Part shown: positions 3,815 through 32,497 of the stretch, one piece after another
Layout of the letters: every line of letters begins with the position of its first letter
Position numbering within the stretch: position 1 is the first letter of the stretch
Assembly (NCBI GenBank): GCA_022709505.1
Contig: JAKLIR010000002.1
Span: 1 to 32,627, forward strand
Direction: 5' to 3'
Length of the DNA: 32,627 nt
DNA from: a bacterium
GTDB lineage: Bacteria; UBP15; UBA6099
Made by a program: the position numbers and the translations under genes
Notes under the pieces: model-generated
Databases searched by the model: none
What the model was told of the DNA's origin: nothing
What the model saw: the letters and a program-made list of their open reading frames with translations, nothing else

Positions 3815-6670
3815 TCAGAAAACGTAGTTTTGTCTGTGAGTAGCCTCCGCCAAAAACTTATCGAACTCAGCGTCGGGCGGATTCTCTTTCGCTTCGACGA
3901 CCCTTTTTCTGAACATCTTCGCCGGCTTGTCGTCGGGGATGTGCTTGAACACCTCGTCGAGTTTTTCCAGCGATTCGTCCCATTTTCTCTCGAAAAACAG
4001 AATCACTGCTTCCTCGTGGGCGCGGATTCCCTTTTCCAGTTCGTCCGGAATCCCATCCGATTTCTTCGCCAAGAGCTCGTATATTTTCACGGGTTTTTCG
4101 TAACCTGAAATCCATGCGATATCGAGCAGGCGCGTTATTATGTGTTCGTCCGCTTCGGCTTTCGTAAACTCGCTTATCGTCTTCTGCGTGTCGTAGGTCT
4201 TCCCTCCGCTTTCGAGGTGTTCGCCGAATTCGACGGCGTGCCCCATGGAGGTGTAGTTGAACCGTTTCACCGATCCCATGTTTCCCGCGATCAGGTCTCC
4301 GGTGTTCACTCCGCAGCGGACTTGTATGTCCGGTTTTCCTCTCTCTTTCCATCCCACTCGCAGTTCGGCTATTTTTTTCTGCATGTCGATAGCGCAGAAG
4401 CAGCAGTTCTTGGCGTGCTCCTCGAAGTATATGGGCGCGCCGAAGATTCCGAGCACGGCGTCTCCGATGTACTTGTCGAGCGTGCCGCCGTAGCCGAGCA
4501 GGATGTCCGTCATCGCAGTGAGGTATTCGTTCAGGAGCTCCACGAGGTCTTCCGGAGACATGGTTTCGGATATCGTCGTGAAACCCGCGATGTCCGAGAA
4601 GAATACCGACGCATGTGTCATTTCTCCGCCGAGCTTCAATTTATCCGGATCTTTTATGAGTGTTTCGACGACCTGCGGGTTGACGTAAGTCGAGAACATT
4701 CCCTTCATCTTTTTCTTTTCCTGCTCCTCGGTGATGAATCTGTAAAGGAATACGAGAATGAAAGTGAGGATTACGAGTGAGATGGGGACGAATAGCGGGG
4801 CGTCGATTCTCATTTTTATGAAAAGATAGCTGCAGAAGACGAAATAGGCGGCGGTTGTCAGGATCATTATCAGGAAATTGATCATCGCGACGATGAAAGC
4901 CGAGTTGTGTTTAACCGCGCCGCCGGCGAATCCGAACCCTACGCCGAGGACGAGAAATATCAGAACAATGAAAATCGGCGATGTCTGTCTGATGAAAAGG
5001 TTCTCGGTGATCGTGTTGATCGCATTCGGGTGAAGCCCGAGTTCTTTATATCTCGCTTCGAGGGGAGTCGGCGTGGTTTCCGCCGCGCCGGTGGCGGTCA
5101 GTCCGACTATGAAAATCTTGTTTTTGAATGAATTAACGAAAGCTTTTAGCCCTTTAGCTTCCTTTTCGGTTATGGTTTGTAGTACCGACATCTCGGCTTC
5201 TTCCAGAGGCACCATCTGTTCTCCGGGCTTCAGATGGAGATTCTTGTCGTTTTTCTGCCATATACGATACCTGTTGATCGAAGTGTACAAGTTTCTCAGG
5301 CTTAAGTGCGGGAACAGAGTTGTGTCCGCCCAAACCCCGGTCCAGTTCACAAGCATCGTCCCTCCGGGGAGAAGCGGGATCACGATGTCGCCTTTTTTGT
5401 GAGTTTTCGGGTGGACGGCGTTTTTGAGGATGATGCTGTCTCTGTTGAAAACCACATTCTTTTTATCAACGCCGAGGTAACGCATGGCCAGCAGAAGGTC
5501 GATGTGCGGATAGAGTCGCCCGTTGTATTCGACCACGGGAGCTATCATGCGCATCGTCCCGTCACCTATGCTGAACTCGGCCTTGCGGGCTCCTTGTCCG
5601 ACTGTTTGTTCTCCTATGATGGGTGTAACAGGTTTGATCTTGTTCAGCTTTGTGAATGTGTTTTCAAGACCTTTGGGAATCTTCCACGAAACTTTTAAAT
5701 TCTGTTTCTCGAAATTCGAAATCTCGAAGTCTTTCGCGGCGCGGTCGGCAGTCATCCGCCGAACGGCGTGTTTCGAAAATGTTCCGTCCTTTTCACTCAA
5801 CAAATAGTCGAAATCGGAAGTAACGAAATTCCTGTAGGCATCGTACATCGCGCCTTCGATCGGATTGTTGGGCCTGCTGCTCGTTGGGTAAGACAAATAC
5901 TTTTCGAACGCCTTTTTCAGTTTTGGGTTCGTTTTTATTTCTTTCGACGTGTACGGGGAGGCGATCCAGTTCTTAGAGTCGTAAGTGAAGTAAACGTTTT
6001 TCGCGGGGCCGGCGGCGGCGGCGACCGCGGATTCCCTGTCCGGAGCGAGCGCCGAGAGGTCTTTGTTCTGTTCCGCGAAAGACGCCACCTGCTGCATCTG
6101 CATGTCCGAATTCGAGAGGTCTTGCGAGAAAATCACTTCGTCGAGTTTCGCCGCGAGCGGGCCGGCGACCGAAGCCGCGTCCGGTCCCCCGAGCAGCTCG
6201 GTATAGTATTTTAGATTGTCGATCATTCCCGTTTTCAATTGAACGTCTTGGGACACGATCGCGGATATCTGATTGAGCACGTTCGTGAAGTTGCTCTTGA
6301 CGTCCGGGTCTATTTTTCTTCCGAAGGGCCGGGAGTAGTTGAGGTCGAAAACGGTGGCGAGAGCATGGCCGTTGTCTTTACCGAGCGCGTTGATGATGTC
6401 TATGTAATAAAGAGGGTCGTCCGGGAAAGTTCCTTCGAATTCGAGAGTCGTCTCGTCGATCTCGACAATCACGAAGTCCTTGTTCACGGGGGGCTTTGAA
6501 AGCGACTTGCGGAGCTTGAACTTGAAGTCGAGGTTGTAGTTGTCGAACGACTTCAGCGGCCCTGAGAAATAAAGGACGAGGAACACTATCGCGATGGCGA
6601 GCCCGATAATAGGTCCGACGATCCTGTTTCGCTCCTCGGTTTTGTTAGGAAGTTTGAAAGGAAGTTTCAT
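3815..6670 (-). CDS. CHASE2-domain class III nucleotide cyclase, C1-like half
   Basis: The protein has 951 residues and a GGGGGAG ribosome binding site (minus strand, 6679-6685). One membrane segment (about 17-38) leads into a long extracytoplasmic CHASE2 sensor (about 40-560), followed by three membrane segments (about 565-583, 590-618, 624-643) and a cytoplasmic class III cyclase domain (about 690-865). The tail (about 875-951) has a TPR-like helix pair. Both metal-binding aspartates are present: Asp693 in FFSDIAGF and Asp737 in DKYIGDAVLG, 44 residues apart. The purine-contacting Lys733 is also present. However, the transition-state Asn and Arg (the N and R of AVNLAAR in ordinary cyclases) are Glu814 and His818, and the usual GD is Gly-His811. 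Alone it should not form a normal active site. The neighbouring paralogue has the opposite defects. The gene follows its partner by 36 bases, so they are almost certainly one operon. Confidence 0.9.
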   Translation of the reverse strand: MKLPFKLPNKTEERNRIVGPIIGLAIAIVFLVLYFSGPLKSFDNYNLDFKFKLRKSLSKPPVNKDFVIVEIDETTLEFEGTFPDDPLYYIDIINALGKDNGHALATVFDLNYSRPFGRKIDPDVKSNFTNVLNQISAIVSQDVQLKTGMIDNLKYYTELLGGPDAASVAGPLAAKLDEVIFSQDLSNSDMQMQQVASFAEQNKDLSALAPDRESAVAAAAGPAKNVYFTYDSKNWIASPYTSKEIKTNPKLKKAFEKYLSYPTSSRPNNPIEGAMYDAYRNFVTSDFDYLLSEKDGTFSKHAVRRMTADRAAKDFEISNFEKQNLKVSWKIPKGLENTFTKLNKIKPVTPIIGEQTVGQGARKAEFSIGDGTMRMIAPVVEYNGRLYPHIDLLLAMRYLGVDKKNVVFNRDSIILKNAVHPKTHKKGDIVIPLLPGGTMLVNWTGVWADTTLFPHLSLRNLYTSINRYRIWQKNDKNLHLKPGEQMVPLEEAEMSVLQTITEKEAKGLKAFVNSFKNKIFIVGLTATGAAETTPTPLEARYKELGLHPNAINTITENLFIRQTSPIFIVLIFLVLGVGFGFAGGAVKHNSAFIVAMINFLIMILTTAAYFVFCSYLFIKMRIDAPLFVPISLVILTFILVFLYRFITEEQEKKKMKGMFSTYVNPQVVETLIKDPDKLKLGGEMTHASVFFSDIAGFTTISETMSPEDLVELLNEYLTAMTDILLGYGGTLDKYIGDAVLGIFGAPIYFEEHAKNCCFCAIDMQKKIAELRVGWKERGKPDIQVRCGVNTGDLIAGNMGSVKRFNYTSMGHAVEFGEHLESGGKTYDTQKTISEFTKAEADEHIITRLLDIAWISGYEKPVKIYELLAKKSDGIPDELEKGIRAHEEAVILFFERKWDESLEKLDEVFKHIPDDKPAKMFRKRVVEAKENPPDAEFDKFLAEATHRQNYVF

Positions 6671-6706
6671 CTTCGTATCTCCCCCAGAGATATTTTCACG
6701 AAAAAG

Positions 6707-9571
6707 TTATTTCGTAGTCATTGTATATACGCCGTCCCAGCCCTCTCCGGGCGGGTTCGCTTTATAGTCTTCACATCGTTCTATATAGATTCTGCTCGGG
6801 CCGTCCGTGTGGCGTGCTTCGAGAGCGAGCTTGAATTCCGAGATCGCTTCGTCCCACTTTTGTTCGAGGTACAGATTGATTCCTTTTTCAAAGTGCTCCA
6901 AGCAGCGCGCCATGTCTTCGGGCAGTCCGGTATCTTTTTTCTCGATGAGTTCGTAAACCTTGACGGGTTCGAGCTTTCCTTTCACCCTGATGCTGTCGAT
7001 AAGCCGGGCGATCACGGCGTGCTTCGTCTTTTCATAGGTGTTTTCGCTTATCATGAGTTTCGTGTCATATTGCTTGTTTACGCCGAGGATACGAGCCGCG
7101 AGGTTGACCGCGTCGCCCATGATCGTGTAGTTGAATCGCGACTGGGAGCCCATGTTCCCGGCGATCATCTTTCCGGAATTCAGCCCGACGCTCGTGTATA
7201 TGGGTTTCTTGCCCTCGGCTTTCCACTTCTTGTTCAGTTCGAGCGTTCGGTTGTACATGTCTATCGCCGAGAAACAAGCTTTGACGGGATTGTCCTCGAA
7301 ATGAACGGGCGCGCCGAATATCGCCATGATGATACTTCCCTCATATTTGTCGAGCGTGCCGTCGTATTTGAAAATGTCTTCCGTCATTTCGGTGAAGTAT
7401 TCGTTGAGGCGCTCGACGAGTTCCTCCGCGGTATCGGTCTCGTTGAGCCCCGGGCCGGACGCGAGGGCGAACATCGCCGTCAGGTCCATCTTTTCGCCGC
7501 CGAGCTGGAGCTTTTCGGGGTGCTGAATCAGCGTGTCCACGACCTGCGGGTTGACGTATGTCGAGAACATGGCCTTCATCTTCTTTGCTTCCTGCCCCTC
7601 CGTCATGAACCTGTAAACTATGACCATCAGGTAAGTAAGGATTATTGCTATGATTGCGGGCACGAGAGGTATCCACAGTCGGTTGAATGAGAACGCGATC
7701 ACGGTGGCGATGAAATATCCCGCCACTGCGCCGAATGTGATCAGTGCTCCTATCGCCTGTTTCGCCGCTCCGCCGGCGTAGCCGATCCCGACGCAGATGA
7801 TTACAAGCACAACGAAGAACGACCAGAAAGAAACAACTTTGATGAAAAGCTCGTTCACGATCGTATTAACGAAGTTCACGTGCATCCCGACGAGAGGGTA
7901 TCTCGGGTCCAAGGGCGTTGGATTGAGGTCGTGAGTGTCTGCGGCGGTCATTCCCGTCATGCTTATCTTGCCGTCGAAGAAACGGAGCGTTTTCACCGCA
8001 TCGGCTTTTTCTTCCTTGTTGAACGAGGCGAGTCGCTGTTGTTCGAGTAAAGACATCGGTTCGCCGCGCTCTTGTTTTTTCATCAGGTTGTAGATAACCG
8101 ATGCATCGTATATCTGCTTGAAACTTCTGTGTGAGAACTGCCTCGGATTGTTGAATTGTCCGGCCCAGTTCACGAGAACCTTGTCCCCTTCATACAGTGG
8201 AATGATGATTTTCCTCCGTTTTTTCTCATGCGGGACCTTGCAGTTGTTCAGAATGATCCTTTCTTTTTCGAAACGGAGGTCTTTCATCCCTATATCGAGA
8301 TACCGCATCGCGATTATAAGGTCTATGTGAAGATATAATTTTCCTTCGAACACAACGGCGGGCGCCGCGCTGCGCACCGTTCCATCCTGTTTTTGGAATT
8401 CGGGTTTGACATATCCTACGCCGGCGACGTACTCGCCAACTTCGGGAATCGGGGTTTGCATATTTATGACATTCATATAACTGCGCAGGAGTTCCTTTAT
8501 CTCGGCCGGTTTTCCCCGCGGTGTTATGCCCAACTTGCCGTTTATAGCGAGAGCCTTGTCATTTTGGGTCTTCAATTTTTTGATTTCAGCAGATATCGCG
8601 GCCCGCTGTTTCTTTGTGAAAGGCAGCGGTTTCCCGCCGTTGATTTCTTTTTTCTTGCTGCTGTCGAGGAGTTGCTGGAGTTCTTCCGGAGAAAGGTTTC
8701 TCAGAGCAAAGTTTACGAGGACTTCAGTCTGATTTTTTGTCTGCGTCCTATCCGCAAGGACTATCAGGCGTGCGAAAATTTCATGGGCTTTCTTATTGTA
8801 GAGTATGTCGTTGAAGCCGTAAGGAGTGTCTTCTTTGTTATTAACTATTTGAGCGAGGTACACGTTTCCGGCGATGGCGATAGCGTCGTGGAGAATCTTG
8901 TCCCGGTCCGGAGCGAGAGTCGCGAGATCGGCGTTTTCGCTTAAGAAAGCGCCGGTGCTTTTAAGCGCGTCGAGACTTGTGACGAGCTGCTGGTCGCCGA
9001 TGGCTTTAAGTAGTCCGCTCGCGGCGCTTTTCAGGGTTGCGGCGCTACCGGGGGTTTTGAGCGAAGCGGATATGTCGTAAAGGGCGGTTTTAAGATTTCC
9101 GATAGCCTGCTGGTTGGCCTGATAGCCGGAAACGAGGTTTTCGAATTGAGCGCGGAACACGTCCGCCATTTCCACATTCAGAGCCGGCCCGGCCGGGTCG
9201 AAGAAAAACACGTCGAAGAACGTCGCCTTGGTTCTCGACCCTTTTTCCCCGAGGGCTTTTATTATTTCGGCGTATAGGGTTCTGTCGTACGGCCACGGTT
9301 TCCATTCATAACTCTCGTCGTCGATGTCGAGCAGAACGAGTTTATCCGGGATCAGCTTTCGGTCGAGCGCCCCTCTGAGCCTGAACCGCATGTCGTACGC
9401 CCTGTATTCGAATGCCTTGAGTTGGTCGTGGACTTTTCCCACGATAAAAACGTTATCCGTGCCGTCATGGGCGATGATCCCCATGAAGACGGCGATGAAA
9501 GCGCCGAGAACTATCCCCATGATCCTGTTCCGCTGCTCGTGGGTCAAGGAGATTTTCTTGGAAAGTTTCAT
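6707..9571 (-). CDS. CHASE2-domain class III nucleotide cyclase, C2-like half
   Basis: The protein has 954 residues, is a tandem paralogue of the gene downstream and has the same architecture: N-terminal membrane anchor (about 18-40), CHASE2 sensor, three membrane segments (about 570-650), cyclase domain (about 695-870) and a TPR-like tail. A GGAGG ribosome binding site lies at 9580-9584 on the minus strand. Here the transition-state residues are intact: Asn823 and Arg827 in GDAVNLAAR, with Asp820 and Thr816. But the first metal-binding Asp is replaced (Ala702 or Leu703 in MFALASG, depending on alignment) and the second is Ser746 in DKYEGSIIM, while Lys742 is kept. That is the residue pattern of the C2 half of mammalian adenylyl cyclases, where the second position is also Ser. 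Most likely it pairs with the downstream protein to make one composite active site. Cyclization of ATP is the default guess; GTP is not excluded. Confidence 0.9.
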   Translation of the reverse strand: MKLSKKISLTHEQRNRIMGIVLGAFIAVFMGIIAHDGTDNVFIVGKVHDQLKAFEYRAYDMRFRLRGALDRKLIPDKLVLLDIDDESYEWKPWPYDRTLYAEIIKALGEKGSRTKATFFDVFFFDPAGPALNVEMADVFRAQFENLVSGYQANQQAIGNLKTALYDISASLKTPGSAATLKSAASGLLKAIGDQQLVTSLDALKSTGAFLSENADLATLAPDRDKILHDAIAIAGNVYLAQIVNNKEDTPYGFNDILYNKKAHEIFARLIVLADRTQTKNQTEVLVNFALRNLSPEELQQLLDSSKKKEINGGKPLPFTKKQRAAISAEIKKLKTQNDKALAINGKLGITPRGKPAEIKELLRSYMNVINMQTPIPEVGEYVAGVGYVKPEFQKQDGTVRSAAPAVVFEGKLYLHIDLIIAMRYLDIGMKDLRFEKERIILNNCKVPHEKKRRKIIIPLYEGDKVLVNWAGQFNNPRQFSHRSFKQIYDASVIYNLMKKQERGEPMSLLEQQRLASFNKEEKADAVKTLRFFDGKISMTGMTAADTHDLNPTPLDPRYPLVGMHVNFVNTIVNELFIKVVSFWSFFVVLVIICVGIGYAGGAAKQAIGALITFGAVAGYFIATVIAFSFNRLWIPLVPAIIAIILTYLMVIVYRFMTEGQEAKKMKAMFSTYVNPQVVDTLIQHPEKLQLGGEKMDLTAMFALASGPGLNETDTAEELVERLNEYFTEMTEDIFKYDGTLDKYEGSIIMAIFGAPVHFEDNPVKACFSAIDMYNRTLELNKKWKAEGKKPIYTSVGLNSGKMIAGNMGSQSRFNYTIMGDAVNLAARILGVNKQYDTKLMISENTYEKTKHAVIARLIDSIRVKGKLEPVKVYELIEKKDTGLPEDMARCLEHFEKGINLYLEQKWDEAISEFKLALEARHTDGPSRIYIERCEDYKANPPGEGWDGVYTMTTK

Positions 9572-24119: not shown

Positions 24120-24153
24120 CGATTTCAACCCACGTTAGTGAAAAATGCAGGCC
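24120..24153 (+). repeat. Fragment of the ~173-bp repeat (right end only)
   Basis: These 34 bases match the right end of the repeat copy at 25587-25620 at 28 positions, in the same orientation, including TTTCAACCCAC and GAAAAATGC. The left and central hairpins are absent. It lies between the photolyase and the kinase gene, just upstream of the kinase promoter, and so marks the left side of the peptide cassette. Confidence 0.6.
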
Positions 24154-24240: not shown

Positions 24241-25074
24241 ATGGCTGAAAGAATCGAAATCGACGCCGGTGGATTGCGGTTGGGGATAACGACCGCCGAG
24301 TCGAACTTGGTTCGGCCGGTATTGGTTCATACCGTCGCGAGCCGCCGCGATCCAGATTTCATGCTCGAAGTTGTTTCGAAACAAGAGGTGCGCCTCGGCC
24401 GCGGGTTTGAAATCGAACAAAAGGGCGATTGCTTCCTGTTCGGGATGCAGGGTGTCGATTGCCGGCTTGACATAGGAAAGAGAGAGGGAAAGCTTGATGT
24501 CGTTCCGGACGCGGGAGCGCTCGAGTATGCCATGAAAGTGATTATCTCCGTCCTCTTGCTCAACAGGGGCGGGGCGATCTTTCATGCGGCTGGAATCATT
24601 GTGGGCGGCGCGGGTTTGGTGTTCGCGGGTCCGCACGCGGCCGGAAAAAGCACGGTTGCATCTTATGCGCTTGAAAAAGGGCTCACCGTCATCGATGATG
24701 AAAACATAATTATCGCGAGGGCGGCGGACGGCCGGTTCCGGCTGTTCGCGATGCCGTTCGAGGGTCGGGTGGGCGGGGCTGATGCGTATGGCTTGAGAGA
24801 AGGGCATTCTCTGTCGGCGATCTTTTTCCCGAGGCACGGAAACGGCGCTGCTGAAACAGTAAAATTGACCGGAACCGCCGCGGCGAACAAAGTTTTTGAA
24901 AACGTCTGTTATTTACCACCTGAAAGAGGTATCATTGGCCTATCTCTGGAAGTCATTGATGCGCTGATAAAAAACATACCGATCGCCGACTTGTGCTATG
25001 CCCTTGATGAAAGGGAGAGCCTATGGGATGAAACGGGGAGATTTGTGGAAGAAAATTTACATTCATTCGCCTGA
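24241..25074 (+). CDS. HPr-kinase-like P-loop kinase of a RiPP cassette (HprK-related kinase A type)
   Basis: This 277-residue protein has a C-terminal half resembling HPr kinase/phosphorylase: FHAAGIIVGGAGLVFAGPHAAGKST contains the conserved His and a Walker A loop (Gly130 to Thr138, with Lys136), followed by VIDDENIII with the acidic pair that binds metal in HprK. The HprK C-terminal phosphorylase loop is not visible, and the Glu after the P-loop Ser is Thr. HprK homologues of this size occur next to PqqD-like proteins in lasso-peptide clusters, where some phosphorylate a C-terminal serine of the peptide, and in a poorly known HprK-related/PqqD system. The PqqD-like gene overlaps its 3' end, so they are co-translated. 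Its substrate is probably a peptide, perhaps the precursor at 26679, but that is inference. Confidence 0.8.
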   Translation: MAERIEIDAGGLRLGITTAESNLVRPVLVHTVASRRDPDFMLEVVSKQEVRLGRGFEIEQKGDCFLFGMQGVDCRLDIGKREGKLDVVPDAGALEYAMKVIISVLLLNRGGAIFHAAGIIVGGAGLVFAGPHAAGKSTVASYALEKGLTVIDDENIIIARAADGRFRLFAMPFEGRVGGADAYGLREGHSLSAIFFPRHGNGAAETVKLTGTAAANKVFENVCYLPPERGIIGLSLEVIDALIKNIPIADLCYALDERESLWDETGRFVEENLHSFA

Positions 25075-25318
25075 TTGCGCGTGGCGGGAGATCGGCGGCG
25101 AGGTTTTCATCGTCTCCTCCAAGTCCGGCGGCGTCCACATGCTGAATCCCGTGGCGTCTTTCATCTGGACCCACCTCGACGGAAACAGCACTGTCGCCGC
25201 CATTGCATCGGAACTTGAGAAGGAATTCGATGTGGAAAACAGCACAATCAATAAAGACATCCCGGAGTTCTTCGATGAAATGACTAAGATCGGTATTGTC
25301 TCCGAAAAGCAACTTTAA
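25028..25318 (+). CDS. PqqD-family peptide chaperone (RiPP recognition element)
   Basis: This protein has 96 residues from the ATG at 25028, which has AAGGGAG about ten bases upstream; in-frame ATGs at 24998 and 25007 are alternatives. It overlaps the kinase gene by 47 bases, showing tight coupling. The sequence fits PqqD: a short beta segment (GGEVFIVSSKSGGVHMLNPVA) and then three helices (ASFIWTHLDG, VAAIASELEKEFDV, KDIPEFFDEMTKIGIV). PqqD proteins form the winged-helix RiPP recognition element that binds the leader of a precursor peptide and hands it to a radical SAM maturase or other modifying enzyme. A radical SAM/SPASM gene and a small Cys-containing peptide follow. The likely leader ligand is the YEKP segment of that peptide. 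Confidence 0.85.
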   Translation: MKRGDLWKKIYIHSPDCAWREIGGEVFIVSSKSGGVHMLNPVASFIWTHLDGNSTVAAIASELEKEFDVENSTINKDIPEFFDEMTKIGIVSEKQL

Positions 25319-25447
25319 TCAGGGTTGAATCTTTTTCGCCCCCTCCGCGTGAGAAATCCATTTTGAAAGCTATTAAATAAATTTTCATAATCTCGAATAT
25401 TCCCCAATATACCTTTATGCCGGATTTTGTTTTATTCTTATTAAACT
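25319..25447. other. AT-rich spacer after the PqqD gene
   Basis: This 129-base stretch between the PqqD stop codon and the repeat copy is markedly AT-rich (for example ATTAAATAAATTTTCATAA near 25372). I see no gene, no convincing terminator and no consensus promoter in it. Confidence 0.5.
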
Positions 25448-25620
25448 GGATTTTTCACCAGAAAAATCCGGGAAATCGTAAAAAGGGCGATCTACGGTGT
25501 TGCATCATCGACTCGAACTCGGTCACATACTAAACAGTATGCTCCCTCGTTCTCGCTCGATACGCCTTGTATCTCATCCCTTTTTCCGATTTCAACCCAC
25601 ATTGGGGAAAAATGCGGGTT
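25448..25620 (+). repeat. ~173-bp three-hairpin dispersed repeat, copy 1
   Basis: The element has three inverted repeats: GGATTTTTC(25448-25456)/GAAAAATCC(25461-25469), CATACT(25526-25531)/AGTATG(25536-25541), and AACCCACATT(25594-25603)/AATGCGGGTT(25611-25620, one mismatch). Copy 2 at 26852-27025 has the same length, orientation and hairpins. No protein is encoded; it resembles a MITE or a REP-type composite element. The right-end hairpin contains the ATG at 25612 used by the radical SAM gene, so this copy forms that gene's 5' leader and could affect its expression. Confidence 0.8.
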
Positions 25621-26682
25621 AAAGGCGGTCGAAACGCTTTTTCAAGGAAAGAGGTTTCGGAGTTGGAGAGAGATTCGGTTCTCGAAAAAATGTACGAAGA
25701 AGCGGTGCGGCTCCGGCGGCTCCTATCAGTTCATTTCGAACTGACTCATAACTGCAATCTCAGATGCAAGCATTGTTACGTTTGTCCCTCGAAGGGATTG
25801 GAAATGGACGCCGATACCGTGATCCATGTGCTTGAGAAGATAGCGGAACGCGGCGCGCTTTTTTTGACTTTCACTGGCGGGGAGCCGCTGGTCCGGGAAG
25901 ATTTTTTTGAGATCGCGCTTGCGGCGAAGGCTCTCGGTTTCTCAATCCGGGTTTTTACAAATGGAACGCTGATCGGAGAGAAGGAAGCAGACATCTTTGG
26001 GGAAATTTCCCCGCTCGAAGTAGGGGTGAGCCTGTACGGAGCGAACCCGGAAACCCACGATTCAATTACCGGAGTGCCCGGCTCTTATCTGAAAACCCGC
26101 CTCGCGGCGGAGGCGCTCATTAAAAGAGGGGTGCGCGTCACTATTAAATCGGTAATCATGAAGCCGAATTTCGAGGAATACGGCGAACTGATCGACTATT
26201 CCAAGGGCATAGGCGCCAAATACCTGTTTGACATTACGGTTTTTCCGAAGGACGACGGAGACAAGCAACCGCTGGTGTTGCGGCTTGAGGACGAGCGGAT
26301 TGAAAAGATCTTTTTGGACCCAAGGCTGCGCGGTGCGGGCGGGGAGGGGCGCTCCGGTTGCCGCGGCCCGGTTTGCGACCTAAACACCGCATCGATCGCG
26401 ATATCCCCGGAAGGAGATATTTTCCCTTGTCTTCAGCTTCGGATTTCGCTTGGGAACGTAGCGGAGGGAGAGATAGATTCGGGCATATCGAAAATTACGG
26501 CTAAAGACGGCCCGATAAAGAGAATTTTAAAGGAAAATGAGTTGAAATTATGTTATAATTGCAATGTGAGGAAATATTGCACGAGGTGCCCCGGCCTCGC
26601 GCAGCTTGAAGATGGGGATGTCATGGGCCCTTCTTTGTGGGCTTGCAGAATCGCCGCATCAAGGGGGAAATCTCAGCAATGA
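25612..26682 (+). CDS. Radical SAM/SPASM peptide maturase
   Basis: This protein has 356 residues from the ATG at 25612; the frame is open upstream (TTG at 25567) but that part is repeat sequence. CNLRCKHC (Cys48, Cys52, Cys55) is the CxxxCxxC motif that binds the SAM-cleaving Fe-S cluster, and TGGEPLVRE (about 91-99) is the SAM-contacting GGEP motif. The C-terminal SPASM region has at least eight cysteines (CRGPVC, FPCLQ, LCYNCNVRKYCTRC, WACR), enough for two auxiliary Fe-S clusters. Such enzymes build thioether, C-C or epimerized residues in precursor peptides. The tiny gene at 26679 overlaps its stop codon by ATGA, so the peptide is the obvious substrate. The type of cross-link cannot be predicted. 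Confidence 0.85.
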   Translation: MRVKGGRNAFSRKEVSELERDSVLEKMYEEAVRLRRLLSVHFELTHNCNLRCKHCYVCPSKGLEMDADTVIHVLEKIAERGALFLTFTGGEPLVREDFFEIALAAKALGFSIRVFTNGTLIGEKEADIFGEISPLEVGVSLYGANPETHDSITGVPGSYLKTRLAAEALIKRGVRVTIKSVIMKPNFEEYGELIDYSKGIGAKYLFDITVFPKDDGDKQPLVLRLEDERIEKIFLDPRLRGAGGEGRSGCRGPVCDLNTASIAISPEGDIFPCLQLRISLGNVAEGEIDSGISKITAKDGPIKRILKENELKLCYNCNVRKYCTRCPGLAQLEDGDVMGPSLWACRIAASRGKSQQ

Positions 26683-26843
26683 ACCAAAATTCAGACAACA
26701 ATAGCCAAGGCTCGAAAAAACGCCCTTATGAAAAACCGACTATAAAATCCGGGACCATCAAAGACACTTTTCTTGCATGCGGCAAGTGTACTAACGGCCC
26801 CGTGGATCAATTCCTCTGTAATATTTTCCCGGAATTAAGCTGA
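26679..26843 (+). CDS. Putative RiPP precursor peptide, 54 residues, Cys-containing
   Basis: The ATG at 26679 overlaps the maturase stop in ATGA, a translational coupling typical of maturase-peptide pairs. The 54-residue product has a polar leader, a KKRPYEKPTI segment (residues 13-22), and a C-terminal core holding Cys34, Cys37 and Cys47 (CGKC, then LC). The YxxP motif with a following hydrophobic residue and Gly25 resembles leader motifs bound by PqqD-type recognition elements, for example in lasso peptides. There is no double-glycine cleavage site. The peptide ends in Ser54 (FPELS). In paeninodin-type lasso peptides a C-terminal serine is phosphorylated by an HprK-like kinase, so Ser54 is a candidate target. 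It may have been missed by automated annotation because of its size and overlap. Confidence 0.75.
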   Translation: MNQNSDNNSQGSKKRPYEKPTIKSGTIKDTFLACGKCTNGPVDQFLCNIFPELS

Positions 26844-26851
26844 ACTTACTC

Positions 26852-27025
26852 GGATTTTTCACCGGAAAAATCCGGGAAATTGTAAAAAAGAGCGATCCAC
26901 GGCGTTGCATCATCGACTCGAACTCGGTTACATACGAAGCAGTATGCTCTCTCGTTCTCGCTTGATGCGTCTTGTGTCTCATCTCTTTTTTCAATTTCAA
27001 CCCACCTTGGTAAAAGATGTGGGCT
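26852..27025 (+). repeat. ~173-bp three-hairpin dispersed repeat, copy 2
   Basis: Same orientation and length as copy 1, with GGATTTTTC(26852-26860)/GAAAAATCC(26865-26873), CATAC(26931-26935)/GTATG(26942-26946), and a degenerate right-end pair around CAACCCACCTT and AGATGTGGGCT. The two copies share long identical islands such as GCATCATCGACTCGAACTCGG. It begins eight bases after the precursor stop codon, where it could act as a terminator-like or RNA-stabilizing structure. Confidence 0.8.
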
Positions 27026-27140
27026 AATTACAATTTAATTTTTGAATGCTTTTATTTTGGGTATAATTTTTCAGTTGGTTTTAATTTATTAATTTATATA
27101 TATCATATATTGAATACTAAAAGGGATTGAAAAGCAGAAA
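27026..27140 (+). promoter_or_regulatory. AT-rich promoter region of the nucleotidyltransferase gene
   Basis: This stretch is extremely AT-rich, unlike the genome around it. It contains a perfect TATAAT at 27062-27067 without a well-placed -35 box. The gene's ATG (27141) is 74 bases further down, with AAGGGA at 27121-27126 as a rather distant ribosome binding site. I see no gene here. Confidence 0.4.
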
Positions 27141-29465
27141 ATGACGAAAAGGAATAGACACGAAAACATTACGGCAGCCAGAAAGCTGCTTTTTTCTCTA
27201 ATGAAAGCCGAAACCGATCAGAAAGCCGCTCCCGCGGTCTTGGAGGAAATTAGAAAAGGCATCCCTTGGAATGACGTGATCAGAGACGGAGTCGCGCCTT
27301 ATGTTTATGACATAATCAGAAAAATCGGCCTCGAAAAAGAGATTCCTGACTCGGCCGGAACGGCGCTTGAGAAAAGATTCGTTGAAAACACCTGTAGAAA
27401 CATCATCATGATGGAAGAACTTGAAATAATTGTGAAATCACTAAACGCAGAGGGAATCGTCCCGGTGCTTCTCAAAGGCGCGGCGCTCGTTCTAAGCGGT
27501 GCATATTCACACCCCGGCCACAGGTGGATGAAAGATATGGACATACTTGTCCGCCGGGAGCAGTTTGAAGCGGCGTCCGCCGCACTGACCAAGGCTGGAT
27601 ATTCAGGGGCGGGTTCGAGAGGCCACCACAAGGCATTTTCCGTGATGCGGGAATTCCCCATTGTTCTGGAACTTCATAAAAAGTTTTTCAATCCCGACAA
27701 TCCCATACATCGTTTTGCTTTCGATCTGCCCGAAGAAGAATTCATTGACAGAGCAACGAAAATAGATATAAATGGAATGTCTGTTATGTTTTTGACGGAG
27801 GAAGATAATTTATTATATCTTTTATGTCATGCCGCGAAGGAGGGACTTGGAAGTTTTAAATTATTGGTCGATATCCACAAATCGAAGATTGAAGATGAAG
27901 GTAAAGACCAATTGTTTGGAAATTATTGTGAAATATACAAAATACATAAATCTATATATAATTTAAAAGATATTATAGAAATGTCTGTTAATGGTGGTTG
28001 CGTTTTGGGGAATCCCGGCGGCGGGATTGAAAACGAGTTGCCGGAGAAACTCGGGAAATACGGCGAGGCGTTGGATTTAGGAAAAAACGAGGTTCCTGAT
28101 AGTTTCGGCCCATTAAGACAAATGGGCTCTATCAGGGGAGCGGCGCGGAAAGCAAAGGCTATGCTTGGAATACCATTCTATATTCTGTTTAAGAGAAAAA
28201 GTAACCTTAAATTAGTAAATTTTGCCATATTCGGGATTATTCTCGCTTCCATTTTGTCTTTCACCGGCATGGCCGCGAATGCGGCAAAACCCCTGCAAGC
28301 GGAAGTTCTTCACAGCGGACTCAACATCAAAAGCGGAGCGCCGGTGCTTCTCATTAATCAAGGGTCGGAAAAAGGGATCAGAAAGGGAGAAGAGTACGAA
28401 GTATCGATTGCCGGCAGAAGGATAGGGATTTTGCACATCAGTAATACTTTGCCGGAAAGCGCCGTCGGCGAATTCGATTCCATATTCAACGAACCGGCCC
28501 CGCGGATAGGCGCGAAAATCAACATATCTTTACTCGGAGGGCAGGACTCGTCGGACACGAGGTCCGGAGGGGGGCCCGAAAACAACGAGATACCCGAAGC
28601 TCTTAAAAAAGGATACAAATTGGGCGCTTCGGATGTGCTTGCCATAACCACCATTCCCGAAAATAAATTGCCGCACAGCGTGACCGTTCGACCGGATGGG
28701 ATGATATCTCTTCCATACGTGGGGCTTATTGCCGCGGCCGGTCGCACTCAGTTCGAAATCAGCGAAGAAATAAGGTTGAAGCTTAAAAAAGATTTCAAAG
28801 ACCCGTGGGTCGAAGCTACGGTTACGGAGTATCACAGCAAGACGGTCCGCGTCCTCGGAGAAGTTAACAAACCGACTCTTCAAGGCGGGGGAGAGGGCGA
28901 ATATTCGTTAAAAGAAAACGTCAGGCTGATCGATTTCGTGGCGAAGATAGGCGGGCTCGGTGAAAAGGCCGACGTAAAGAGGTTGCGACTGATCAGGCGG
29001 AACAGCGACAGCGTAAATCTCGATCTAACTAAGGCCATTGAGGAGCCGAACTCGGAAATGAATGTCATGCTCGAGGACGGGGACGTGATATACGTTCCGA
29101 CGATCTCCGAGAGCGAAAGAGTCCGGGTGATGATGCTCGGTCAGATCGGGAAACAGGGCATGATCGAGCTGGACCCCGCGAAGACGACGATCATGGATGC
29201 GATTTCGACGGCGGAAGGACTCTCGACGAACGCGGCGCTCGACCAGATTTTCGTGGTTCGCATGGAAGGCAAGCAACAGACTGTAACACAGTTGAGACTG
29301 GACAAGATCAAGCGCGGATTGGCCGACATCGGATTCCAAGTTCAGAACGGAGACATCATTTACTTTGCTTCCGTGAAAACGAAGAAGCCGCTCGACAGGC
29401 TGAACGATTTGCTAAAAGACATAATCCCGTCGCTCAATTTCATACTTCTTATCGACAGACTTTGA
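27141..29465 (+). CDS. Fusion of NTP_transf_5 nucleotidyltransferase and polysaccharide export (OPX/SLBB) protein
   Basis: This 774-residue open frame joins two unrelated parts. Residues 1 to about 290 look like the NTP_transf_5 nucleotidyltransferase family: LLKGAALVLSGAY (about 110-122), then HRWMKDMDILV with the metal-binding Asp132 and Asp134, then VLELHKK and a long helical tail. Residues 358-382 form one hydrophobic helix followed by AANAAKP, which looks like a signal peptide. About 384-465 is a small beta domain. From about 490 comes the Poly_export domain (YKLGASDVLAITTIPEN, DGMISLPYVG), then two SLBB segments (about 575-650 and 680-740) and a C-terminal amphipathic helix, as in Wza/KpsD-type exporters. 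Base composition also changes: the first ~900 bases are AT-rich, the OPX part is not. The frame has no stop at the junction, though an internal ATG near 28159 could start a separate OPX protein. A gene fusion, recombination product or misassembly are all possible. Confidence 0.8.
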   Translation: MTKRNRHENITAARKLLFSLMKAETDQKAAPAVLEEIRKGIPWNDVIRDGVAPYVYDIIRKIGLEKEIPDSAGTALEKRFVENTCRNIIMMEELEIIVKSLNAEGIVPVLLKGAALVLSGAYSHPGHRWMKDMDILVRREQFEAASAALTKAGYSGAGSRGHHKAFSVMREFPIVLELHKKFFNPDNPIHRFAFDLPEEEFIDRATKIDINGMSVMFLTEEDNLLYLLCHAAKEGLGSFKLLVDIHKSKIEDEGKDQLFGNYCEIYKIHKSIYNLKDIIEMSVNGGCVLGNPGGGIENELPEKLGKYGEALDLGKNEVPDSFGPLRQMGSIRGAARKAKAMLGIPFYILFKRKSNLKLVNFAIFGIILASILSFTGMAANAAKPLQAEVLHSGLNIKSGAPVLLINQGSEKGIRKGEEYEVSIAGRRIGILHISNTLPESAVGEFDSIFNEPAPRIGAKINISLLGGQDSSDTRSGGGPENNEIPEALKKGYKLGASDVLAITTIPENKLPHSVTVRPDGMISLPYVGLIAAAGRTQFEISEEIRLKLKKDFKDPWVEATVTEYHSKTVRVLGEVNKPTLQGGGEGEYSLKENVRLIDFVAKIGGLGEKADVKRLRLIRRNSDSVNLDLTKAIEEPNSEMNVMLEDGDVIYVPTISESERVRVMMLGQIGKQGMIELDPAKTTIMDAISTAEGLSTNAALDQIFVVRMEGKQQTVTQLRLDKIKRGLADIGFQVQNGDIIYFASVKTKKPLDRLNDLLKDIIPSLNFILLIDRL

Positions 29466-29490: not shown

Positions 29491-31689
29491 ATGCAGCAAG
29501 ACCTTAGTTTAAGCGAATATTGGCATGTGCTTCTAAAGCGCAAATGGGTCGTCATTTTCACGTTTCTCGTGTTCGTGACGTTCTCATTTGCATTCACATC
29601 CATACAAAAACCGGTTTACATGGCGAAGGCGACGGTCCGGATCGATCAATACAAGTCCGTGATGAACGTTATTTCAGACCTTCTGAGATGGAGCCCCGGC
29701 GAAATAATGTCAACCGAGGTGGAAACAGCGCAGAGCGCGATCGTTCTTGAAAAAGCCGCGCGGGAGATAGGCCGGATCAAACCCGGCGCCACCAAGGTGC
29801 AACGTTACGCCGCGGTGGATTCGCTTCGAGCACAAGTGAAAGCGGAACGGATCGAAAGAACGAACATGATCCAGATTCAAACAACGGCCTCAAACCCCGA
29901 CGAAGCCGCTTCGATAGCCAACGCCGTGGCCGAGGCATATCGCGAGGAAAGCAAAACCGCGAACGCCGAAGATGTGCGAACGGCTCGAGTGTTCGTGGAA
30001 GACCAACTGAAAAAAGCACAGATCCAGCTTCGGAAATCGGAAGATATGCTACGTAATTTTAAAAGGCTGCACAGCACCCTTTCAGTGGATTCTGAAACCA
30101 AAATCACTCTCGACAGGCTTTCCGCGCTGGAAAGCGAGCTGCTTCAAATAAGAAACCAGCGACAGCAGATCAGGGCCGAGCTTTCAGACCTTTCAGCCCG
30201 ACGCCGGAATCTCGATGTTAAAAAGGAAGTCAACACCGCGGATTCCGGGCTTGCAGTGAGTATGTACAACAAATGGACGGGCATACAGGAGAAAATCGAC
30301 ACGGAATCGAAAGAACTCACCGAAGCGAATCCCGACATGCAGAACCTTCGCCGGGAAGAAAGAAGAACGTGGAACCGCCTCGTTGATACGGTGAAGAATT
30401 CGATGGATGCGAAAACACAGGAGTTGAGCAGGCAGGACGATGCGCTCGCCGCTCGCGAGGGAGAACTATCAGGCCTCGTAGGGTCCGAATTGTCAAAGAT
30501 ACCGGACAAAGACCTCGACCTCAGCCGGCTCACCAGAGAAGTATCGGTCAACGAGGAGCTATACACCCTCCTTAACAGAGAATTCAAACAAGCCCAAATA
30601 AAAGAGATGGGAATGGTGAGCCAAGTAACGCTTGTAAGCCCCGCCATTCCTCCGAAAGCGCCGATCAAGCCGAACAAAAGATTGAGCATGATAATCGGCA
30701 TAGTTCTCGGACTCATCCTCGGCGCCGTCCTCTCAACGCTCGTGGAAAGTTTCGACACCTCCATCGGCGCGATGGAAGATATAGAACGCTTGCTGAACGT
30801 GCCGGTCTTGGCCGCCGTTCCTCGCTTCGACTACAACGGACGGGCCCATCTGCCGTCCTTCATGTTTAAAAGAACTCCGACCCACGCCGTCTCCGATTTC
30901 AGCAAGGTGCTTCCAACAGTTTTCAACCCGAGCAGCGCCGAAGCCGAAGCGTACCGGCACTTGAGGACGAACTTCCAATTCTCGCGAATGAAAGACGACA
31001 AAAAAGTTTACCTCGTCTCAAGTTCAGGTTCGCAGGAAGGGAAATCGATAACCACGTCGAACCTCGCGGTGGTCCTTGCGCAGAGCGGGCAGAAAACACT
31101 GCTTATGTCCTGCAACCTCCGCCGTCCGTCAGTCGATAAAATCTTCGGCATTCCGCGAAAACCCGGAATCACGGATATCCTGATAGGCGCTGTAACGATC
31201 GAAGAGGCCACTCATACTTTCGCCGACATAGTCATGGGGGAAATGGACTGGGAACCGGCTCTCAAACTGCCCGGCATAGATAATCTGCACATCCTTCCGT
31301 CCGGCACATCTCCGCCTAATCCGACCGAGCTGCTCGAATCAAATCAGATGGAGAACCTGATAAACGGGCTGAGAAAGAAGTACGATATCATCCTCATCGA
31401 CGCCCCGCCCGTGCTTCCCGTCACCGACTCTCTTCTGCTCGGCTCGAAAGCGGAGGGCGCAATTCTCGTTTACCAACTCGGGCACCTCCCGCGCCGCGCT
31501 CTGATCAGAGCGAAAAAGCTCATGGAAGGTGTGGGAATAAATATCGTCGGAATCGTGCTCAATGATGTCAGACCCGAATTCCACGGCGTGGCGCCGGTTT
31601 ACATCTCTCATGAGTATATGAAAGCAACGAAAAAAGTAATGCAGGATCCCGAACGCGTGCCCGAGCACGATCCCTTCATGGAGAGTTAG
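29491..31689 (+). CDS. Wzc-like polysaccharide chain-length protein with degenerate BY-kinase domain
   Basis: This 732-residue protein has the Wzc layout: membrane helix (about 19-38), a periplasmic Wzz-type domain with long coiled coils (about 170-360), the Pro-rich SPAIPPKAPIKPNK segment, a second membrane helix (about 398-418) and a cytoplasmic BY-kinase domain (about 480-700). Walker A is SSSGSQEGKS (Lys518) and Walker B is ILIDAPPV (Asp637). The Walker A' motif, normally VDxDxR, is instead LLMSCNLRRP, with Ser540 and Asn542 replacing both aspartates. The tail has only two tyrosines (in VAPVYISHEYM) and no Tyr cluster. It probably sets exopolysaccharide length with the OPX partner 25 bases upstream, but autokinase activity is doubtful. 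Confidence 0.85.
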   Translation: MQQDLSLSEYWHVLLKRKWVVIFTFLVFVTFSFAFTSIQKPVYMAKATVRIDQYKSVMNVISDLLRWSPGEIMSTEVETAQSAIVLEKAAREIGRIKPGATKVQRYAAVDSLRAQVKAERIERTNMIQIQTTASNPDEAASIANAVAEAYREESKTANAEDVRTARVFVEDQLKKAQIQLRKSEDMLRNFKRLHSTLSVDSETKITLDRLSALESELLQIRNQRQQIRAELSDLSARRRNLDVKKEVNTADSGLAVSMYNKWTGIQEKIDTESKELTEANPDMQNLRREERRTWNRLVDTVKNSMDAKTQELSRQDDALAAREGELSGLVGSELSKIPDKDLDLSRLTREVSVNEELYTLLNREFKQAQIKEMGMVSQVTLVSPAIPPKAPIKPNKRLSMIIGIVLGLILGAVLSTLVESFDTSIGAMEDIERLLNVPVLAAVPRFDYNGRAHLPSFMFKRTPTHAVSDFSKVLPTVFNPSSAEAEAYRHLRTNFQFSRMKDDKKVYLVSSSGSQEGKSITTSNLAVVLAQSGQKTLLMSCNLRRPSVDKIFGIPRKPGITDILIGAVTIEEATHTFADIVMGEMDWEPALKLPGIDNLHILPSGTSPPNPTELLESNQMENLINGLRKKYDIILIDAPPVLPVTDSLLLGSKAEGAILVYQLGHLPRRALIRAKKLMEGVGINIVGIVLNDVRPEFHGVAPVYISHEYMKATKKVMQDPERVPEHDPFMES

Positions 31690-31693
31690 CGGA

Positions 31694-32497
31694 ATGTATC
31701 TCGAACACTGGAAAATGAAGCTCAAACCTTTTGAAAACATCCCCGACCCGAGATTCTTCTTCGCGTCTCCCCAACACGACGAAGGGCTCATGCGGCTCGT
31801 TTACAGCATCGAGGAGAAAAAAGGCGCCTCCCTTCTGACAGGGGGCTTCGGTTGCGGCAAAACCCTGCTCGTCAACACGCTGATGAACAAAGTCCTCCGC
31901 GGCCGGTTCAAATTCGCAATGGTTTCCAATCCGCTGCTTTCACCCAAGGAAATGCTCGGGGAAATATTGAGAAAACTCGATCACCACACACCCGGAGACA
32001 CGGACAAAGTCGATCTGCACATGAAACTCGAGGAAGTGCTGCTGAACAACATGCGCGACGGCCGGAACACGGTGATTATCATAGACGAAGCGCACGTCAT
32101 CGAAAGCGCTCAGGTGCTGGAAGAGATAAGAATGCTTCTGAATTATTACGACTCGGGTCAATTTCTCCTGACGTTGCTCCTCGTGGGACAACCGGAATTG
32201 ATGGAAAAAATCCGCAGGAACCCCGCCATGTCTCAGAGAATAGCCGTCAAATACGAATTAAGTCCCTTCACCAAGAAACAGACCACCGAATACATAACCC
32301 ACAGGCTTTCAGTCGCGGACGCGCCGCCGACCGTTTTCACAACTGAAGCAATAGACTTGATTCACGATTATTCCGGCGGAATCCCGAGGAAGATAAATCA
32401 TGTATGTGACATGTCGCTCTTCATTGGCTATACTAGGAACGAAGAAGTCGTAACCCCGAAAATCGCTGGAGAAGCCGCGGCCGAGATGGGCGGGTGA
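31694..32497 (+). CDS. ExeA/XrtA-associated-type AAA ATPase of the exopolysaccharide locus
   Basis: This 267-residue ATPase starts MYLEHWKMKLKPFENIPDPRFFF, the family's typical N-terminus (also seen in ExeA/GspA and in ATPases of exosortase-linked exopolysaccharide loci). Walker A is GGFGCGKT with Lys56, Walker B is VIIIDEAH (Asp131-Glu132). A Sensor-1-like QPELMEKIRR and a C-terminal winged-helix segment (IPRKINHVCDMSLFIGY) follow. It starts four bases after the Wzc-like gene and precedes another gene by two bases, so it is in the same operon. Its role is probably energizing assembly of the export machinery. No exosortase gene is in the window, so membership of an exosortase system is only a possibility. 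Confidence 0.88.
   Translation: MYLEHWKMKLKPFENIPDPRFFFASPQHDEGLMRLVYSIEEKKGASLLTGGFGCGKTLLVNTLMNKVLRGRFKFAMVSNPLLSPKEMLGEILRKLDHHTPGDTDKVDLHMKLEEVLLNNMRDGRNTVIIIDEAHVIESAQVLEEIRMLLNYYDSGQFLLTLLLVGQPELMEKIRRNPAMSQRIAVKYELSPFTKKQTTEYITHRLSVADAPPTVFTTEAIDLIHDYSGGIPRKINHVCDMSLFIGYTRNEEVVTPKIAGEAAAEMGG

Follow-up and report, generated by a model that had tools for sequence, protein, structure and literature searches.

What does a cell make when a kinase related to HprK, a PqqD-type protein and a radical SAM/SPASM enzyme are encoded together with a small cysteine-containing peptide, next to a nucleotidyltransferase? The question is raised by a stretch of 32,627 nt from a bacterium of the GTDB lineage UBP15; UBA6099 (GenBank assembly GCA_022709505.1, contig JAKLIR010000002.1, positions 1 to 32,627; 'the window' below is this whole stretch). 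The kinase, PqqD, maturase and 54-aa peptide genes form one operon, whose product is, very probably, a small peptide of the ribosomally synthesized and post-translationally modified (RiPP) kind. We consider this operon, with a probability of roughly 0.74, to be an undescribed radical SAM branch of the group that contains paeninodin and the Linear Polyphosphorylated Peptides (LPPs), its product being phosphorylated on a C-terminal serine and probably decorated further.

The operon and its precursor peptide

The elements by which a RiPP cluster is recognized are all present: a conserved, leader-bearing precursor gene, a RiPP recognition element (RRE) and a modifying enzyme, all on the forward strand. 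The precursor gene (26679–26843; 54 aa, MNQNSDNNSQGSKKRPYEKPTIKSGTIKDTFLACGKCTNGPVDQFLCNIFPELS) encodes a YxxPxI leader motif (Y17–I22, 26727–26744), three cysteines, the first of them C34 (26778–26780), and a serine at the C-terminus (Ser54, 26838–26840). Its start overlaps the end of the maturase gene by ATGA (26679–26682), as the initial annotation had stated, and this coupling is also kept in two relatives. That annotation would have yielded to homologous loci without a conserved small peptide at this position; we found by tblastn that a precursor homologue directly follows the maturase in three genomes, sharing 69% identity across 48 aa in G001 and G002 and 42% in G006. Between the window and G001 (locus L021), where the ATGA overlap is retained, synonymous sites are saturated (pS = 0.88) and non-synonymous ones are not (pN = 0.20), an excess that marks a real gene under strong purifying selection. 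A profile built on the leader only also recovers the window precursor.

The leader motif, common to the homologues, fits the [Y/W]xxPx[L/V/I/F/A] pattern of discrete RREs (PMC13381572) and is the predicted RRE-binding site. A candidate partner is encoded by the second gene (24998–25318; 106 aa), whose product matches the PqqD family as the initial annotation expected (Pfam PF05402, E = 2e-16) and whose closest solved relative (9X8Z, E = 2.5e-6) is LppB, the LPP leader-binding protein, bound to its leader. This gene shares 77 nt with the kinase gene (24241–25074), an overlap likewise noticed earlier.

The maturase (25612–26682; 356 aa) combines Radical_SAM (E = 1.9e-21) and SPASM (E = 5e-05) domains of Pfam, and its CxxxCxxC motif (C48/C52/C55) and auxiliary cysteines are invariant in our maturase alignment (A1). 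For its start we chose the ATG at 25612; a longer frame from a TTG at 25567 begins inside a 161-nt repeat. In the precursors, the distance from the leader tyrosine to the first cysteine is 20 residues in 37 of 56 and 18 in another 10, compared with 17 in the window; this near-fixed place, together with the three cysteines, suggests a thioether cross-link, with C34 as the likely target.

The repeat itself has copies at 25462–25622 and 26867–27027, flanking the maturase and peptide genes, and a fragment at 24120–24151. One might therefore imagine that it carried these two genes to the side of unrelated ones by chance. We regard this as hardly credible and rejected it: gene order is the same in G001 and G002, kinase, PqqD and maturase occur together across phyla, and the repeat, present 40 times or more across the genome at 89–96% identity, is a dispersed element. 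A search for it in plasmids gave no match.

Kinase-linked loci and the C-terminal serine

The first gene (24241–25074) encodes a P-loop protein of 277 aa, the predicted precursor-peptide kinase, that protein family libraries recognize poorly: Hpr_kinase_C matches at E = 0.029 (Pfam), HprK_rel_B at 35 bits (cut-off 200), and ScmC is weak too. Its AlphaFold model, built with an alignment of 45 homologues, has a predicted local distance difference test score (pLDDT) of 93.3 and the HprK/PEPCK fold, and its best PDB matches are phosphoenolpyruvate carboxykinases (Foldseek E of 1e-8), which are known fold relatives of HPr kinase. Across 64 homologues, residues H115, G130, G135 and K136 do not vary and D153 is present in 59, while position 154 is Asp or Glu, the window kinase having Glu as do 23 of the 64. 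Those lasso-peptide kinases that have been characterized carry His-Lys-Asp-Asp as their catalytic residues and modify the precursor at its C-terminal serine (PMC9266682). The initial annotation had suggested a search for HprK-related kinase A; the window kinase reaches 18.1 bits with that model (TIGR04352, cut-off 200) and the companion model TIGR04353 gives 23.4 bits against 35, so that membership of the HPr-rel-A system was rejected. Judged by these sequence comparisons, the kinase belongs to an unnamed subfamily rather than to HprK-related kinase A.

We searched the maturase alignment in named genome contigs and in 386 whole genomes and examined the surrounding regions. An HprK-like kinase lies near the maturase, together with PqqD, in 62 loci from Omnitrophota, Elusimicrobia, Planctomycetota, Verrucomicrobia, Kiritimatiellia, Chloroflexota and others. 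As a hold-out we drew 400 genomes of the phylum to which G337 belongs and added one locus from another sample, which yielded 20 maturase loci; this set is not wholly independent, the phylum having been picked because G337 (L157) was in the first set. Other phylum samples (around G093, G044, G344 and G225) gave just two to eight genomes each. Kinase and PqqD are present in all 20 hold-out loci, so the possibility, allowed for in the initial annotation, that they belong to a system never found with the maturase can be set aside.

The same association speaks to another explanation of the locus. PqqD and a radical SAM/SPASM enzyme are the core of the PQQ and mycofactocin pathways, and the library matches of the window maturase include PqqE and mycofactocin maturases; the peptide could accordingly be the precursor of a redox cofactor or signal, and the P-loop protein a regulator. 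We find this quite improbable, as no other cofactor-pathway genes were found in the window, the three-Cys cores vary in sequence, and the kinase accompanies the maturase throughout the hold-out.

Precursors were sought with the leader-only profile, and hence their C-termini could not influence selection. Among 41 distinct kinase-linked precursors of the first set, 26 end in Ser and five in Thr (31/41), as against 20 Ser and 18 Thr among 378 ordinary proteins of the same loci (10%). Within the precursors, Ser makes up 63% of last positions vs 8.6% of the rest of the core. The hold-out behaves alike, with 13 of 16 distinct precursors ending in Ser (nine) or Thr (four); one of these (L258) was shortened by hand at its N-terminus, its C-terminus being unchanged. 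Both sets together give 44 of 57, spread, in the case of the Ser/Thr-ended precursors, over several clades of the maturase tree; binomial values for this excess treat the rows as independent, and the sequences are related.

A kinase need not act on the residue that is conserved. It might target an internal Ser or Thr, with the C-terminal Ser kept for recognition by, for example, the maturase or a transporter, as the action of LppK on core Ser3 would suggest (PMC13381572) and as would suit the existence of kinase-linked precursors without C-terminal Ser/Thr and of Ser-ended ones without a nearby kinase. On the other hand, it is the C-terminal Ser that characterized lasso kinases modify, and in one hold-out genus otherwise near-identical precursors alternate at their ends between PCFS and PCFT, an exchange of just Ser for Thr. 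We therefore consider an internal target rather unlikely and C-terminal phosphorylation the better account.

Two further groups of peptides came to light in the survey. The window genome holds a second RiPP-like system with PqqD, a radical SAM/SPASM enzyme and a peptide ending in EADK (L036; G000:C48, 5949–7489). In L170 and L172, which belong to a kinase-linked group, precursors end in ...TRCT(S/G)EPPAIKG, unlike the Ser-ended majority.

The nucleotidyltransferase and the polysaccharide operon

Downstream of the peptide gene, a frame from 27141 to 29465 opens with an NTP_transf_5 domain (27279–27881, E = 3.1e-41), as the initial annotation had it; that annotation ended the cassette at 28200, a boundary that cuts through a single 774-aa open reading frame (ORF). 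The frame runs on into Poly_export and SLBB domains (28605–29363; Pfam, 2.7e-16), which makes the protein a nucleotidyltransferase–exporter fusion. The two parts are separate genes in the relatives G001, G002 and G004, and overlapping separate genes in L022 and L233. An internal stretch of the fusion resembles a signal peptide; the single frame may be a genuine fusion or the result of a stop codon having been lost. Residues D132 and D134 (DxD) of the nucleotidyltransferase are intact and invariant, and its model (pLDDT 81) shows weak matches to Pol-beta-type nucleotidyltransferases (MenT1, ANT(2'')) and still weaker ones to FKRP. A Wzz/Wzc-type chain-length determinant with an autokinase domain (29491–31689; Pfam, NCBIfam) and an ATPase like those associated with the XrtA/PEP-CTERM system (31694–32497; TIGR03015, 196 bits, cut-off 324.5) follow, completing an exopolysaccharide (EPS) operon on the same strand. 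Elsewhere in the window (3815–9571, reverse strand) lie two genes in tandem for CHASE2-adenylate/guanylate cyclase proteins, each about 950 aa long.

Does the nucleotidyltransferase belong to the peptide pathway? The RiPP could consist of kinase, PqqD, maturase and peptide only, with NTP_transf_5 a neighbouring EPS-operon enzyme, and we take this as a serious contender, if a somewhat doubtful one: the NTP-export-Wzc-ATPase operon stands without an adjacent cassette in G001 and G004. Across the family, however, NTP_transf_5 lies near 26 of the 62 kinase-linked maturases, an archaeal/SipW-type signal-peptidase-like protein (SpI; Ser...His, Pfam S24/S26) near 36, and EPS-type genes near 17, vs none of each in 54 kinase-less control maturase loci, a contrast that shows association with the maturase group and not with the kinase alone, as the control maturases lie further away in sequence than the kinase-linked ones. 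(Of the kinase-less loci in the closest maturase clade, several are cut by contig ends or have Ser-ended precursors.) In seven loci (L041, L048, L060, L147, L151, L152 and L155) SpI and NTP_transf_5 are fused in a single ORF, and a C-terminal Ser/Thr is found in each of the 18 precursors that have NTP_transf_5 nearby, compared with 13 of the 23 that lack it. Of the tailoring first proposed to be combined with radical SAM chemistry instead of lasso formation, the kinase part is well supported by both sets of loci and by the C-terminal Ser/Thr, while the nucleotidyl part is linked to the family as a whole and is, in this lineage, a member of the EPS operon.

We propose the following order of events, modelled on characterized relatives. 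PqqD would bind the YxxPxI leader, as 9X8Z-type RREs do, and present the precursor to the radical SAM/SPASM enzyme, which would modify the Cys-containing core, most likely by a thioether at the first Cys. The HprK-like kinase, given its catalytic residues, the conserved C-terminal Ser/Thr and the precedent of paeninodin, would phosphorylate Ser54, and NTP_transf_5 might then, with less assurance, extend the phosphate with a group derived from a nucleotide or sugar, in the manner of PsmN. In most homologous loci a SipW-type signal peptidase would remove the leader, and the product may leave the cell together with surface polysaccharide or become attached to it, as the frequent linkage to EPS genes suggests. 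A role of the peptide at the cell surface or in regulating export, as the initial annotation supposed, is a plausible hypothesis. Because Ser/Thr-ended precursors track NTP_transf_5 and SpI, the kinase-then-nucleotidyltransferase order and the link to polysaccharide export are testable. A bolder version, that this is a new phylum-spanning RiPP class whose cross-linked, C-terminally phosphorylated peptide is joined by NTP_transf_5 to a sugar or nucleotide and caps, primes or anchors an exported surface polysaccharide, is tentative and in our view unlikely to hold in full.

Several observations weigh against a C-terminally phosphorylated and further decorated product. No close characterized maturase predicts the type of cross-link. 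Among the 57 kinase-linked precursors, 13 have a last residue other than Ser/Thr; L164 and L166, relatives of the EADK system from this same bacterial family and with peptides of the same ending, have an HprK-like kinase and no C-terminal Ser, whereas Ser-ended precursors occur with no kinase found nearby in L163 and L177, as well as in L175 and L183, which have the nucleotidyltransferase. The free-standing NTP-export operons, with the cassette on another contig in G001 and no close copy found in G004, make the role of NTP_transf_5 here less certain than that of the kinase. Finally, SpI was not found within 6 kb in the window or its close relatives, and the window genome (G000, 81% complete) has one weak match only, with an internal stop.

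Comparison with known systems

Among RiPPs, phosphorylation had been described for lasso peptides before the LPPs were added in 2026. The LPPs (Nat Commun 2026; PMC13381572) come with an RRE, an HprK-like kinase, a SipW-type peptidase and an NTP transferase, besides an MsbA-like transporter, are reported from Bacillota only, often in capsule loci, and have a kinase, LppK, that phosphorylates core Ser3; no radical SAM enzyme is mentioned. The window system resembles them in its discrete RRE, HprK-like kinase and NTP transferase (the last within the EPS operon in this lineage), in the leader peptidase of most homologous loci, in its linkage to capsule/EPS loci and in its YxxP leaders, which in some homologues read YxxPxV...FET as in LPPs. 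It differs in its radical SAM/SPASM maturase and Cys-rich cores, the kinase being the sole primary modification of the linear LPPs, in its apparent target at the C-terminus and in its occurrence in many phyla.

The paeninodin and pseudomycoidin systems share with the window an HprK-like kinase with a set of the His-Lys-Asp-Asp type (the second acidic residue being Glu here), a C-terminal Ser, an RRE with a YxxP-type leader and, in pseudomycoidin, a nucleotidyltransferase, PsmN, which decorates the C-terminal Ser, once phosphorylated, with hexoses. They differ in having an Asn-synthetase-like cyclase where the window has a radical SAM enzyme; the lasso cyclase family (PF00733) has no match on the window contig and matches on other contigs only.

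SynChlorMet (SCM; NCBIfam TIGR04248–04251) also pairs an HprK-like protein (ScmC) and a PqqD-like one (ScmD) with radical SAM/SPASM enzymes, of which it has two (ScmE, ScmF) to the window's one. Membership was rejected on bit scores far below the cut-offs (ScmC 24.4/125, ScmD 40.7/100, ScmE 93.1/400, ScmF 71.7/400), and a ScmC match at E of 1e-10 is reached by only one of 45 related kinases. In sactipeptide and ranthipeptide loci, too, a SPASM maturase gene neighbours one for a small Cys peptide, and the sactipeptide maturase StsB is the best full-length NCBIfam match of our maturase; this match is far below cut-off, and kinase, nucleotidyltransferase and C-terminal Ser are foreign to those classes.

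A search of the open-access literature, with subscription journals outside its scope, returned nothing relevant on RiPPs combining a radical SAM enzyme with an HPr kinase and no paper that mentions SCM, and the radical SAM branch appears undescribed. With its enzyme set, the window system would work like those of paeninodin and the LPPs, and yet it falls outside both, with no lasso cyclase on the window contig, no SpI found and a radical SAM enzyme in addition. A radical SAM branch equipped with kinase, peptidase and nucleotidyltransferase over many phyla would make these enzymes a tailoring module independent of the ring-forming chemistry.

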